Part shown: positions 36,970 through 40,860 of the stretch, in pieces | Layout of the letters: every line of letters begins with the position of its first letter | Numbering within the stretch: the stretch's first letter is position 1 | Source: Herminiimonas fonticola | Lineage (GTDB): Bacteria; Pseudomonadota; Gammaproteobacteria; Burkholderiales; Burkholderiaceae_D | Assembly: GCF_003293745.1 (NCBI RefSeq) | Contig: NZ_PTLZ01000004.1 | Location: forward strand, 62,001 to 126,000 | Direction: 5' to 3' | DNA length: 64,000 nt | The notes under the pieces: generated by a model | What the model was told of the DNA's origin: nothing | The model's database searches: none | What the model saw: the letters and a program-made list of their open reading frames with translations, nothing else | Program-made: the position numbers and the translations under genes

Positions 36970-37297
36970 TTTTTCTCCAGGCAGAATCTCTGTCTACGCG
37001 CAGAGTATTCGCGGGACAGTGTACAACGGCGTATGGGATTTTCCTCTGGGTCGTTTATGTGCAGCATGACTTGCGGTAGATGTCTATCCCATAAAAATGG
37101 CATTGCACCAAAGTAACCATGTTGATAAGCTGCCGTGGCAGAAAACAGTTTGAATGCTGTCGACCAGGCGAAATCGGTATGGCAGTAAATGAAAACTGAC
37201 TTTCGATAATTATAAAAAATAGCCGCCGCCTCAAGCATCCATTTCAACCAAAAAGTTAGTCCTTCATTTTCACTTCCACCTAAGTCCTGGATTCCTT
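36970..37297. other. Intergenic region before the lipoprotein operon
   Basis: A 328-base gap between divergent genes. Apart from a seven-base inverted pair (ATGGGAT at 37033, ATCCCAT at 37086) I see no strong structure and no supportable gene. It should hold promoters for both flanking genes. Confidence 0.4.
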
Positions 37298-38257
37298 ATG
37301 CATACAAAGTGGGTTTTTCTAGTTGCGCCGCTGATATTGGGTGCTTGTGCAGTAACTTCGCCACCGCCGCAACCAGTTGAAGCGCCTGTGAGCCGAGCGC
37401 AGCAGATCGAAGCGCAGAAGCAAGTGAGTGCGCCACAGGTGAAAACTCTTAAGCGAAAAATCGCGATTGGCCGTTTCACGAATGAAACGCGCTATGGAAA
37501 AACTTTTCAGATCGATGCCAATCAGGATCCTCTTGGTAAACAAGCTTCCGACATGCTGAACAATCGGCTCATCAGTTCGAACAAATTTCTGACTTTTGAG
37601 CGATCGGATCTGGAAAAAATCAAGAGTGAGCAAGCATTACTTAAAGAGGGAAACCTGATTGGCGTCGATACGTTGATCTTGGGATCGGTGACCGAATTTG
37701 GCCGTAGTACCAGTGGTAAATCCGGGTTTTTGAGTTCTACAAAAATTCAGATTGCCAGAGCCAAAGTTGAAATTCGCTTGGTCGATGCCAGAACTGGATA
37801 TTTGTTTTTTACTGCAACAGGAACCGGCGAAGCTTCTACTGAATCTGGCGAAGTCGCGGGATTTGGCAGCAGGGCAGATTACGACGGCACTTTGAATGAT
37901 AGAGCCATAGGTGCGGCAATCTCCGATGTGCAAAATGCATTGATCAGCAAATTGGAAGAGCGGCCATGGCGTACCGATATTCTGAAAGTAAGTGGAAGAC
38001 AGATATTCATATCGGGAGGTGCGCGGCAAGGTCTGAAGGTAGGTGATGTGCTGGTGGTGATGCAACAAGGCGAAACGGTTAAAAGCAATCAAACCGGCTT
38101 CGCTATCACCTTGCCTCCTGCATTGATCGGAAAAATCCGCGTGACAAGTTTGTTTGGAGACAACGAAACCAATGAAGGAGCGATTGGTGAGCTGGTATCT
38201 GGTGATGCAAGTGCGGCTAAAGGTTCGACGATTTTCGTTGCTGAAAACAAGGAATGA
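37298..38257 (+). CDS. CsgG-family outer-membrane lipoprotein
   Basis: A 319-residue lipoprotein; the lipobox LILGAC ends at C17, and the next residues (AVT) lack a +2 aspartate, so Lol should send it to the outer membrane. Residues about 50-220 match the CsgG fold (KIAIGRFTNETRYGKTF, then GVDTLILGSVTEFGRS and VEIRLVDARTGYLFF). A C-terminal segment of about 90 residues (FISGGARQGLKVGDVLVV) goes beyond the curli pore. No curli subunit, CsgE or CsgF gene is nearby. It heads an operon of four lipoproteins, so it is probably not a curli secretion pore. Confidence 0.85.
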   Translation: MHTKWVFLVAPLILGACAVTSPPPQPVEAPVSRAQQIEAQKQVSAPQVKTLKRKIAIGRFTNETRYGKTFQIDANQDPLGKQASDMLNNRLISSNKFLTFERSDLEKIKSEQALLKEGNLIGVDTLILGSVTEFGRSTSGKSGFLSSTKIQIARAKVEIRLVDARTGYLFFTATGTGEASTESGEVAGFGSRADYDGTLNDRAIGAAISDVQNALISKLEERPWRTDILKVSGRQIFISGGARQGLKVGDVLVVMQQGETVKSNQTGFAITLPPALIGKIRVTSLFGDNETNEGAIGELVSGDASAAKGSTIFVAENKE

Positions 38258-38262
38258 GCATC

Positions 38263-38574
38263 ATGAAAAATTACGTTTCCATCGTCTTCGCACTTTTGTT
38301 GAGTGCTTGTGCCGTGCCTGATACGACGGTCAAAACCGGTTCGCCACGTCCTACGCTCGTAATTAAAGGTGCGCCTGCTGATTCAACTTTGCTTGTGGAC
38401 GGACTGGTAATGGGGCCTGCAACGCAATTCAACGGTGATCCGAATGTCCTCATCCTTGAAGAGGGTTTGCATCAGATCGTGATTAAACAGGCAGGCGTCA
38501 CGATTCATACTGAGAAAACAGTCATCAGCAATGGCGAATCTCGTACAGTAACTATCAATGCAGGAGTCAAATAA
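38263..38574 (+). CDS. Small lipoprotein, PEGA-like beta domain
   Basis: A 103-residue lipoprotein with lipobox LLSAC (C16) and no +2 aspartate, so outer-membrane sorting is expected. The mature part is a single beta domain resembling PEGA: a VDGLVMGPATQF turn and LEEGLHQIVIKQAGVTIHTE. The ATG at 38263 is chosen because AAGGA lies nine bases before it; an ATG at 38254 overlaps the CsgG-like stop. The end overlaps the next start (TAATG). Exact function unknown. Confidence 0.8.
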   Translation: MKNYVSIVFALLLSACAVPDTTVKTGSPRPTLVIKGAPADSTLLVDGLVMGPATQFNGDPNVLILEEGLHQIVIKQAGVTIHTEKTVISNGESRTVTINAGVK

Positions 38575-38948
38575 TGCGCATCTCTTCAATTCTTTGTGCG
38601 GGAGCGTTGTTTGCACTTGCCGGTTGCGTTACAACAGCTCCAGCTAAATACAGTTGGGGCAACTATGAAAATTCGCTCTACTCGTATTACAAGGATTCAT
38701 CGAAATCAGCTGAATATGAGGCTGAACTGGCAAGCATGATTCGTAATTCCGAGGCAACTGCAAAACCTGTTGCGCCTGGTCTTCATGCTGAATATGGATT
38801 CTTGATGCTGCAGGAAGGGAAATTGAAAGACGCGATAGCGCAGTTTGAAAAAGAAAAAGCGAAATGGCCGGAATCAACTTACTTGATGAATAACCTGATT
38901 CGCATCGCATCGAATCCCGTCAAGAAAACAACGGCATCCAAGGAGTAA
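38574..38948 (+). CDS. DUF4810-family lipoprotein
   Basis: A 124-residue lipoprotein with lipobox ALAGC (C18). The mature part begins with the DUF4810 motif KYSWGNYENSLYSYYKD, followed by two helices with TPR-like character (AEYGFLMLQEGKLKDAIAQF). The ribosome site CAGGAG lies seven bases before the start, and its ATG overlaps the previous stop. It is conserved beside CsgG-like and DUF799 genes. Helical repeats suggest a scaffold in a complex with its neighbours. Confidence 0.85.
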   Translation: MRISSILCAGALFALAGCVTTAPAKYSWGNYENSLYSYYKDSSKSAEYEAELASMIRNSEATAKPVAPGLHAEYGFLMLQEGKLKDAIAQFEKEKAKWPESTYLMNNLIRIASNPVKKTTASKE

Positions 38949-38954
38949 TCAAAC

Positions 38955-39623
38955 ATGTCACGAAATTTTAAACTCTTATTGGCGTGTTTCTTTGTTTTGA
39001 GTATCAGTGGTTGCGCTACGCAAATGCAAAAGAAAAGCGACTATACGGCTTTACGGACTGAAGCTCCTCGCTCGATTCTGGTTGTGCCTGTGATTAATCG
39101 CAGTGTGGAAGTCAATGCACCGGATTATTTTCTTTCGACGATTTCGCGACCATTGGCCGAACGTGGCTATTACGTTTTCCCCGTGCATTTGGTTAAACGT
39201 ATGATGGAGGACGATGGCTTGGGCGATGCCAATATGGTGCACGTCGGTGAGCCACAGCAGTTGGGGAAAATGTTCGGATCGGATTCCGTGATGTATGTCA
39301 CGATCGAGCGTTGGGATGCACAGTACATCGTATTTGCTACAACGGTGACCGTCGAATTGAAGTATGTATTAAAGAGTACGTCGAGCGGACAGACTTTGTG
39401 GCAAAACTCGCAAAAGCTGGTGTACCAGCCGCAGAACAATAATTCTGGCGGTGGACTTGCCGGTCTGATTGCGCAAGCGGTAACGGCTGCCATTGCGAAA
39501 GCGGCGCCGAACTACGTCCCGCTTGCTCAGCAAGCCAATATGCAGGCAATTAATACAAAAGGTCAGGGTTTGCCGGCGGGACCGTATATTGATTTATATC
39601 AGAAGGATCAGGCTGATTTTTAA
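38955..39623 (+). CDS. DUF799 lipoprotein, GNA1162 family
   Basis: A 222-residue lipoprotein with lipobox SISGC (C20) and no +2 aspartate. The core has the DUF799 motif PRSILVVPVINRSVEVNAPD and GSDSVMYVTIERWDAQY. The C-terminal 60 residues hold a Gly/Ala-rich segment (GGGLAGLIAQAVTAAIAKA) that could insert in a membrane. The meningococcal relative GNA1162 is a surface-associated antigen with a fold compared with TolB N-terminal domains. Last gene of the operon. Confidence 0.86.
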   Translation: MSRNFKLLLACFFVLSISGCATQMQKKSDYTALRTEAPRSILVVPVINRSVEVNAPDYFLSTISRPLAERGYYVFPVHLVKRMMEDDGLGDANMVHVGEPQQLGKMFGSDSVMYVTIERWDAQYIVFATTVTVELKYVLKSTSSGQTLWQNSQKLVYQPQNNNSGGGLAGLIAQAVTAAIAKAAPNYVPLAQQANMQAINTKGQGLPAGPYIDLYQKDQADF

Positions 39624-39679
39624 CGCGGCAATGAATGATCAGCTTGTTCTAAGCGGATGCGATTAGAGCATTCTTAAAT

Positions 39680-39720
39680 AAAAAAGCCGCGCAGATGAAA
39701 AACATCTGCGCGGCTTTTTT
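39680..39720. terminator. Perfect 18-bp bidirectional terminator
   Basis: AAAAAAGCCGCGCAGATG pairs fully with CATCTGCGCGGCTTTTTT over an AAAAA loop. It closes the lipoprotein operon and the converging mnmA gene. Confidence 0.92.
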
Positions 39721-39729
39721 GTGTTCTGT

Positions 39730-40860
39730 TCAATTTATCGGTGTGGATGCATTGATGATGCCGCCGCCAAGGCAAACATCGCCTTGGTAAAGCACTGCAG
39801 ATTGCCCCGGTGTGACGGCCCATTGTGGGGTCTCAAAGTTGAGTGAAAAGCTGTCGCTGCCGGTGTGCTGTACACAGGCCACATCGGCTTGCCGATAACG
39901 CGTCTTGGCCGACAGTTGTTCCATGTCGGGTGGGCTGCCGGCGACCCAGCTCATTTGACCGGCGCTTAATTCAGACGACAGCAGCCATGGATGATCGTGC
40001 CCTTGCACTATATATAGTGTGTTGGTCGCGACGTCTTTGCGGGCAACGTACCAAGGGTCGCTATTGCCGTCGGTATTTTTGTGCGTCTTCATGCCACCCA
40101 AGCCTATGCCTTTGCGTTGGCCCAGCGTGTAAAAACTCAAGCCTACATGTTCGCCGACGATCACTCCATCCGGCGTTTTCATCGGGCCCGGTTGATATGA
40201 CAGATAGCGATTCAGGAAGTCACGGAATGGACGTTCGCCGATGAAGCAGATGCCGGTGGAATCTTTTTTCGTCGCATTTGGCAGCTTCAGTTGTTCGGCG
40301 ATCTTGCGCACTTCGGTTTTGCGAATTTCACCGAGTGGGAAGAGGGTCTTAGCCAATTGCGCCTGATTCAAACGATGCAGGAAATAACTTTGATCCTTGC
40401 TGGCATCGACAGCTTTCAGTAACTGCGTTTGACCGGCGTTCGGTCCCGACGTCACTTCGCGTACACGCGCATAGTGGCCGGTGGCAATCATGTCAGCGCC
40501 TAATAACATGGCGTGATCAAGGAATGCTTTGAATTTGATTTCGGCATTGCACAGCACGTCCGGATTTGGCGTACGACCGGCCTGATATTCGCGCAAGAAC
40601 TCGGCGAATACGCGGTCTTTATATTCAGAGGCAAAATTGACGGCTTCGATGTCGACACCAACCACGTCGGCGACACTGACCGCATCTATCCAGTCCTGGC
40701 GTGTCGAACAATATTCGGAGTCGTCGTCATCTTCCCAGTTCTTCATGAACAGGCCGATGACTTCGTAGCCTTGTTCTTTTAATAGCCACGCAGATACTGA
40801 CGAATCGACGCCGCCTGACATGCCGATGACGACACGTTTTTTTGTCGGACCTTTAGCCAC
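39730..40860 (-). CDS. mnmA: tRNA-specific 2-thiouridylase MnmA
   Basis: A 376-residue enzyme that thiolates U34 of Lys, Glu and Gln tRNAs using sulfur relayed from IscS through the Tus proteins. It has the PP-loop SGGVDS (residues 15-20), the first catalytic cysteine C104 ([11 protein letters not shown]) and the second, C205 ([10 protein letters not shown]). The start overlaps the Nudix gene stop by eight bases, matching the nudJ-mnmA order known in enterobacteria. Confidence 0.96.

Follow-up and report, generated by a model that had tools for sequence, protein, structure and literature searches.

A conserved four-gene lipoprotein cassette with an extended CsgG-like member in Herminiimonas fonticola may encode an outer-membrane-anchored ring complex

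Introduction

Rings built on the CsgG fold serve curli export, Pel export and flagellar motors at the outer membrane, each with a known client. What such a protein does when it is encoded among other lipoproteins, with no client gene beside it, is the question raised by a locus in Herminiimonas fonticola in which a CsgG-like gene is followed by three further lipoprotein genes. The locus lies in a stretch of 64,000 nucleotides (RefSeq assembly GCF_003293745.1, contig NZ_PTLZ01000004.1, positions 62,001 to 126,000 of the forward strand), here called the window, and all positions are counted from its first letter. An original prediction made from the sequence took the four genes to encode a dedicated envelope complex, perhaps a pore or a peptidoglycan-synthesis activator, and not curli export. 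Our results show that the genes for the extended CsgG-like, PEGA-like, DUF4810 and GNA1162-like proteins form a set with a fixed order that is co-inherited and is present or absent as a block. The reading that we prefer, at a probability of about 0.45, is that they make up a cassette that is complete in itself, spreads horizontally and encodes a ring complex held at the outer membrane by its anchors. Every part comes from a known family, apart from the missing Pfam match of the window's own PEGA-like protein, and the CsgG-fold building block is here part of a fixed set of four lipoproteins that has no client gene.

Results

All four genes are read on the forward strand. The first (37298 to 38257) encodes an extended CsgG-family lipoprotein of 319 amino acids with its lipobox cysteine at position 17, a CsgG core (PF03783, E = 1.8e-29 over residues 47 to 225, 103 bits against a cutoff of 20.8) and a FlgT_C-like domain at about residues 226 to 319. 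It is followed by a PEGA-like lipoprotein gene (38254 to 38574, 106 amino acids from the first ATG, a start at 38263, where AAGGA precedes the ATG by 9 bases, looking more probable), by a DUF4810 lipoprotein gene (38574 to 38948, 124 amino acids; PF16068, E = 1.3e-26, 93.4 bits against a cutoff of 34.7) and by a gene for a GNA1162-like lipoprotein (38955 to 39623, 222 amino acids; PF05643, E = 7.8e-43, 146.6 bits against a cutoff of 25.9), and no NCBIfam family scored above its cutoff for any of the four proteins. The first two genes overlap by 4 bases and the next two by 1 base, and 6 bases separate the third from the fourth. The lipoboxes read, in gene order, LGAC-A, LSAC-A, LAGC-V and ISGC-A, with no aspartate at position +2 in any of them, so that the reading frames and residues confirm what was predicted for the layout and the lipid anchors of this gene set.

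The same features were found by script in the homologues (367 proteins from 98 loci), of which 338 have a clear lipobox and signal peptide and only 1 of these 338 has an aspartate at +2; a further 21 have a weak signal peptide, the window's own PEGA-like protein being one of them by output order, and 8 are without a lipobox. Since the +2 sorting rule was worked out in enterobacteria, an outer-membrane location of the four lipoproteins is a good inference from their sequences and not proof.

A contig scan with an alignment of the extended member confirmed at least 495 CsgG relatives, and the best 80 by likeness to the window's CsgG-like protein were kept. In total, 98 distinct loci were studied in detail, 85 with an extended CsgG-like protein (314 to 351 amino acids) and 13 with a short one (220 to 252 amino acids, around 225), after excluding three loci (L045 to L047) that duplicate L067, L070 and L073. 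Near-copies persist among the 85 extended loci, with 71 left once those of at least 88% identity are removed. The extended CsgG gene is followed by a PEGA-like gene at all 85 loci (one of them partial, cut by a contig end), by a DUF4810 gene at all 83 loci that could be judged and by a GNA1162 gene at 81 of 82. The PEGA-like counts rest on a profile built from stop-to-stop segments, and they include by this profile the very divergent genes of L049 to L051 (that of L050 is 21% identical to the window's). The 81 GNA1162 loci are made up of 77 complete ones, two found on a fuller look (L107 and L140) and two in which the gene runs off the contig (L098 and L138), and the loci that could not be judged are L121 (from the partial PEGA-like gene) and L133 (followed through DUF4810), which meet a contig end, and L103, where 100 N come after the PEGA-like gene. 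The median intergenic gap within the cassettes is -1 base. Carriers are Beta-, Alpha- and Deltaproteobacteria together with metagenome bins labelled as other phyla, several of which, where the label is of a far phylum, may be misassigned contigs.

The short form has the order CsgG-DUF4810-GNA1162 at 13 of 13 loci examined (of 22 short loci seen), and neither the PEGA-like gene nor the C-terminal extension occurs at any of the 13. The extra C-terminal segment of the CsgG-like protein, which had been noticed in the window, makes it about 95 residues longer than these short relatives. In a tree of 73 CsgG cores (66 extended and 7 short) with E. coli CsgG, the two forms are split by one branch (support 100/96). 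The shared occurrence of the PEGA-like gene and the C-terminal extension hints at a direct partnership.

A reverse search that started from GNA1162, and hence did not depend on CsgG, gave the same picture. It covered 120 genomes of the window's phylum (20 with matches) and 97 of its family (19 with matches) and gave 31 loci with a stand-alone GNA1162 gene (L002 to L013 and L026 to L044, the window being L008), 29 of which are adjoined by CsgG and DUF4810 genes. The two remaining loci, L011 and L012, are at contig edges, and the rest of the L012 gene is found with both partners on another contig (L022). One frame of about 250 amino acids with a weak GNA1162 score and neither partner found (L024) was left uncounted, as were GNA1162-like segments within open frames of 562 to 783 amino acids (L014 to L021, L023 and L025), which appear to be a larger protein of the same fold. 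In the phylum sample, DUF4810 was found in 12 genomes, stand-alone GNA1162 in 12 and both in 11. Pairwise distances within the four families correlate at r = 0.69 to 0.85 across 70 loci, against permutation maxima of 0.11 to 0.32, which speaks for co-inheritance of the four families and not for contact between them.

Within the genus, the cassette is present or absent as one block (37031 to 39750, no strand) that holds the four genes, a leader and a terminator-like hairpin. In one congeneric genome lacking it (G141), the flanking matches end at window positions 37030 and 39751 and the flanks lie 146 bases apart; in a second (G176), the flanks match up to 37028 and from 39752 and are 78 bases apart, compared to 2.7 kb in the window. 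A third genome (G199, C5, 192400 to 194000) carries about 1.3 kb of other DNA at the cassette site, with a frame that by eye looks PAS-GGDEF-like, so this intergenic site takes different inserts. No GNA1162 match was found in any of these three genomes. The window and two named Herminiimonas have the cassette at the same site, and when Herminiimonas genomes are compared, the flanking DNA is 80 to 89% alike and the cassette 74%. The nearest CsgG relatives among the best 80 of the at least 495 are those of Herminiimonas sp. KBW02 and H. contaminans, at 86%.

The extended cassette is also carried by two plasmids, pPNAP04 of Polaromonas and pLA5 of Novosphingobium, where the genes are labelled 'CsgG/HfaB family protein', 'hypothetical protein', 'DUF4810' and 'GNA1162 family protein'; the 'hypothetical protein' genes match the PEGA profile at E = 4e-16 and 1.2e-10. 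On pPNAP04 (L154, 1 to 12621), an IS5 transposase is near one side of the cassette and a TerD/VWA/TerY-C/PP2C cluster is on the other. No common neighbour emerged when 2,357 frames around 84 cassettes were clustered (frames of at least 90 amino acids in a span that opens about 5.5 kb ahead of the csgG start and closes 8.5 kb past it, with half coverage required at E <= 1e-8), the two best clusters reaching 6 of the 84 loci, in a test with contigs that are often shorter than this span and from which small or fast-changing neighbours could escape.

An AlphaFold 2 model of the CsgG-like protein, made on 73 sequences, has a predicted local distance difference test score (pLDDT) of 86.2 and a predicted template modeling score of 0.75. 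It is predicted to resemble most closely a chain of the LPHT ring (8z5n, Z = 16.8, 243 residues, root mean square deviation [rmsd] 4.5, model residues 28 to 318), followed by FlgT (3w1e, Z = 14.2, 236 residues, rmsd 6.2, residues 42 to 319), CsgG (4q79, Z = 13.6, 171 residues, rmsd 3.5, residues 45 to 224) and PelC (5t11, Z = 11.8, 120 residues, rmsd 2.7). The search output leaves the 8z5n chain (chain 0) unnamed, and we take it as FlgT from its likeness to 3w1e. Foldseek returned the same first three and also matched GNA1162 (4hrv, E = 1.9e-6). All 73 relatives match PF03783 (E <= 0.01), and 14 of the 73, 66 of which are of the extended form, match FlgT_C at the same threshold. A profile of the C-terminal domain matches chain O of 6ve2, labelled as a LysM domain protein, at E = 0.0021. 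The extension appears FlgT_C-like, and in this it speaks for a collar or ring within an envelope machine and not for curli or LpoB.

Among the partner proteins, the PEGA-like one has no significant Pfam family of its own; PEGA (PF08308) is matched by 18 of 65 aligned relatives (E <= 0.01, best 1.3e-6). Its model (pLDDT 91.3) is mostly beta and has no confident structural relative (best Z = 8.1, and nothing at E <= 0.001 in the fold search), and the best match of its profile against the PDB is at E = 0.047. For the DUF4810 protein, profile matches to designed tetratricopeptide repeat (TPR) proteins (best 2.2e-7) and to CpoB (0.002) indicate a TPR-like protein. The GNA1162 profile matches a solved relative (4hrv) at E = 1.7e-60 and aligns with the CsgG-like profile in hhalign at E = 3.1e-5 with a probability of 73%, which makes GNA1162 a remote cousin of the CsgG-like protein and the second CsgG-fold member of the cassette.

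Discussion

The claim of a dedicated set of four is strongly supported by the conserved order across phyla, the empty sites and the absence of curli partners, and the co-occurrence of the four genes in other genomes was sought and found. The four proteins may also form the dedicated complex that was predicted along with it. From the predicted fold and the gene set, we infer the ring, its contacts, its membrane side and its function as follows. Copies of the extended CsgG-like protein would assemble into a ring by way of the CsgG-fold core, in the manner of CsgG, PelC and FlgT, and the FlgT_C-like domain and the PEGA-like protein would go together, probably in contact. GNA1162 could form a partner ring, and the DUF4810 protein may be a TPR adaptor. 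The lipid anchors would suspend all four from the outer membrane, mainly on the periplasmic side, where the complex might act as a stabilizing or gating ring on the host envelope, on some envelope machine that is widespread, or on the lipoproteins of the cassette. The cassette brings with it no substrate, barrel, inner-membrane part or regulator, so the target is most likely already present in the hosts or is the cassette's own lipoproteins. A bolder version, which we consider rather unlikely, is a portable machine of two CsgG-fold rings, one with a FlgT/TsaP-type collar and a PEGA partner, that is related to the collars of flagella and pili but stands alone, moves between phyla with no fixed substrate gene and displays or gates its own lipoproteins.

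Several observations weigh against a ring-forming cassette of four. One locus (L091, 8640 to 9201) has the CsgG, PEGA-like and DUF4810 genes and, in place of GNA1162, a frame that by eye is peptidoglycan peptidase-like. The same fold search returned HpaA, TolB and LptE (Z = 8.9 to 11.2), which to our knowledge do not form rings, so that having this fold is not enough to imply a ring. The FlgT_C match reaches only 13.3 bits in the window's protein against a Pfam cutoff of 27, and the structural models cover single chains, with the ring and contacts drawn from them by analogy. In passages of a study on Actinobacillus pleuropneumoniae, csgG was constitutive and not regulated in the pig lung, and earlier up-regulation in lung and biofilm is cited there (PMC4446954). 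Finally, stretches that correspond to the two membrane hairpins of CsgG are retained, and a pore would account for them no less well than a ring in the periplasm.

This last point leads to the alternative that the CsgG-like protein is a true CsgG-type outer-membrane pore. It would then export its partner lipoproteins or a polymer of the host, or display them at the surface, and the FlgT_C-like domain and the three remaining proteins would serve as gate and adaptor. We hold this to be possible and on balance doubtful. The segment of hairpin 1 is 27 residues long in the window's protein, 30 in the short form and 33 in E. coli CsgG, and that of hairpin 2 is 31 against 30 in CsgG. The model has 18-residue strands at 125 to 142, 146 to 163 and 169 to 186, and it aligns 153 to 171 residues with the listed CsgG chains compared to 118 to 124 with PelC, over about the same span. 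However, the second strand of hairpin 2 is modelled as a loop in a block with a pLDDT of 67 to 73, and no substrate gene accompanies the cassette. The best alternating hydropathy means of the two hairpins are 2.06 and 1.40, against 2.10 and 2.54 in CsgG, with no clear separation. The two segments hold 10 to 14 charged residues in 12 relatives, which would count against a pore, but those of E. coli CsgG hold 11 and the charge count is thus not decisive. The curli constriction, which we take to be formed by Tyr51, Asn55 and Phe56 of E. coli CsgG (the positions were checked on its sequence), also argues against a CsgG-like channel: the corresponding places in the window's protein are F, A and N, in a loop that aligns with gaps, and none of the 12 aligned relatives, the window included, retains these residues across this gapped loop.

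The same changed constriction makes a curli or curli-like amyloid exporter hardly credible, despite the membership of the protein in the CsgG family. The genome holds a single CsgG-family match, and CsgE, CsgF and the curlin repeat, which were sought throughout the genome as the original prediction invited, gave no match at E <= 0.001, while an E. coli control was positive in all three; conserved neighbors are likewise lacking around the cassette. Curli export was therefore rejected.

An accessory ring of the flagellar motor, a variant of the H ring, seems very improbable even though the LPHT ring chain and FlgT are the best whole-chain structural matches and 40 of the 47 carriers tested, out of 85, have FlgI. 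A sample of 120 genomes from the window's phylum, taken regardless of the cassette, has FlgI in 103, so there is no enrichment, on a baseline that is unmatched in that the carriers span other phyla. Of the seven FlgI-negative carriers, six also lack a FliG_C match (the isolates Anaeromyxobacter soli and A. terrae, and four metagenome bins whose completeness is unknown). Two discordant genomes, one with FliG_C and no FlgI (G248) and one with FlgI and no FliG_C (G255), show that each flagellar marker misses some. No flagellar gene is among the shared neighbors. We therefore set the flagellar ring aside on the FlgI comparison and the six carriers without either marker, and the cassette seems not to need a flagellum.

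An activator of peptidoglycan synthases of the LpoA or LpoB kind, one of the functions first proposed, is improbable, if less so than a flagellar or curli role. LpoA has a TPR part, and the TPR and CsgG-fold parts of the cassette resemble in outline this part and LpoB; weak matches also occur among the relatives, to LpoB (PF13036) in 15 of 73 (E <= 0.01) and to TolB_N in 33 of 73. Against this, a penicillin-binding protein or cell wall gene is never a shared neighbor, and the fold search puts FlgT and CsgG first, with LpoB not among the 50 entries listed, which excludes nothing.

For the ring-forming cassette, comparison with known systems gives a direct relative in the short module CsgG-DUF4810-GNA1162 of the meningococcus (NMAA_0894-0893-0892 and NMB1164-1163-1162). 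It has the same three families in the same order but neither the FlgT_C-like extension nor the PEGA-like gene, and its CsgG is about 30 to 36% identical to the window's. A table in one meningococcal report annotates DUF799 and CsgG two genes apart (PMC5282872), and by our reading the gene between them would be DUF4810. The other systems are more distant. With the FlgT/LPHT ring, a likeness in fold is predicted for the CsgG-like core as well as for the domain at the C-terminus, but the window's protein is a lipoprotein with three lipoprotein partners, has no flagellar neighbors and belongs to a cassette that occurs in genomes without FlgI and FliG_C matches. Curli CsgG has in common with it the family, the lipid anchor, the core fold and the hairpin-equivalent segments, and differs in its CsgE, CsgF and curlin partners, its constriction and its lack of the extra C-terminal domain. 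PelC, with a similar fold over 120 residues, is according to passages of PMC12141448 a lipoprotein whose ring in the periplasm is 12-fold and has the PelB barrel as partner, whereas no common neighbor flanks the cassettes; the rest of the genomes was not searched for pel genes. For TsaP of type IV pili, the C-terminal domain gives a profile match at E = 0.74 (3jc8, labelled TsaP), and in contrast to TsaP, the window's protein has no LysM match in Pfam.

Hints from the literature bear on the short form alone. Passages of PMC10097807 name NMB1163 and NMB1164 among meningococcal vesicle lipoproteins, and GNA1162 as a top human antigen. Genes like NMB1162 and NMB1164 are up-regulated in biofilms of Haemophilus parasuis and A. 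pleuropneumoniae according to excerpts of PMC4245831, and the vesicle proteins of Acinetobacter baumannii that differ with oxygen include a DUF799 protein in those of PMC10016710. The literature searched, which contains few subscription papers or preprints, holds no mention of DUF4810 or PF16068, and neither the four-part cassette nor its FlgT_C link is described there; those of its passages on DUF799, PF05643 or GNA1162 that were covered state no function, and CsgG is not paired with 'PEGA domain' among the matches listed. GNA1162 has been studied as a vaccine antigen, and our findings suggest that this lipoprotein belongs to a machine and does not stand alone. The presence and absence of the cassette within one genus, together with its fixed order, make its function testable through a single block of 2.7 kb.

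A reading as anti-phage defense was dropped, as the four proteins matched no PADLOC family at E <= 0.1. Downstream of the genes, an intrinsic terminator-like hairpin (39678 to 39722, forward strand) has 20 pairs, 9 of them GC, and a T run. Upstream, no sigma-70-like site was found on the forward strand. The leader of about 300 bases is poorly conserved, yet a 25-base element within it (37081 to 37105, forward strand, containing CCAT-AAAA-ATGG) is identical in two further Herminiimonas (L065 and L066), where it also precedes the cassette. For a 20-base core of this element, the genome contains one exact copy and another that differs by 3 mismatches. A 17-base part of the element is found exactly in 3 of 158 loci, all of them Herminiimonas copies, and the element is a candidate operator of the cassette.

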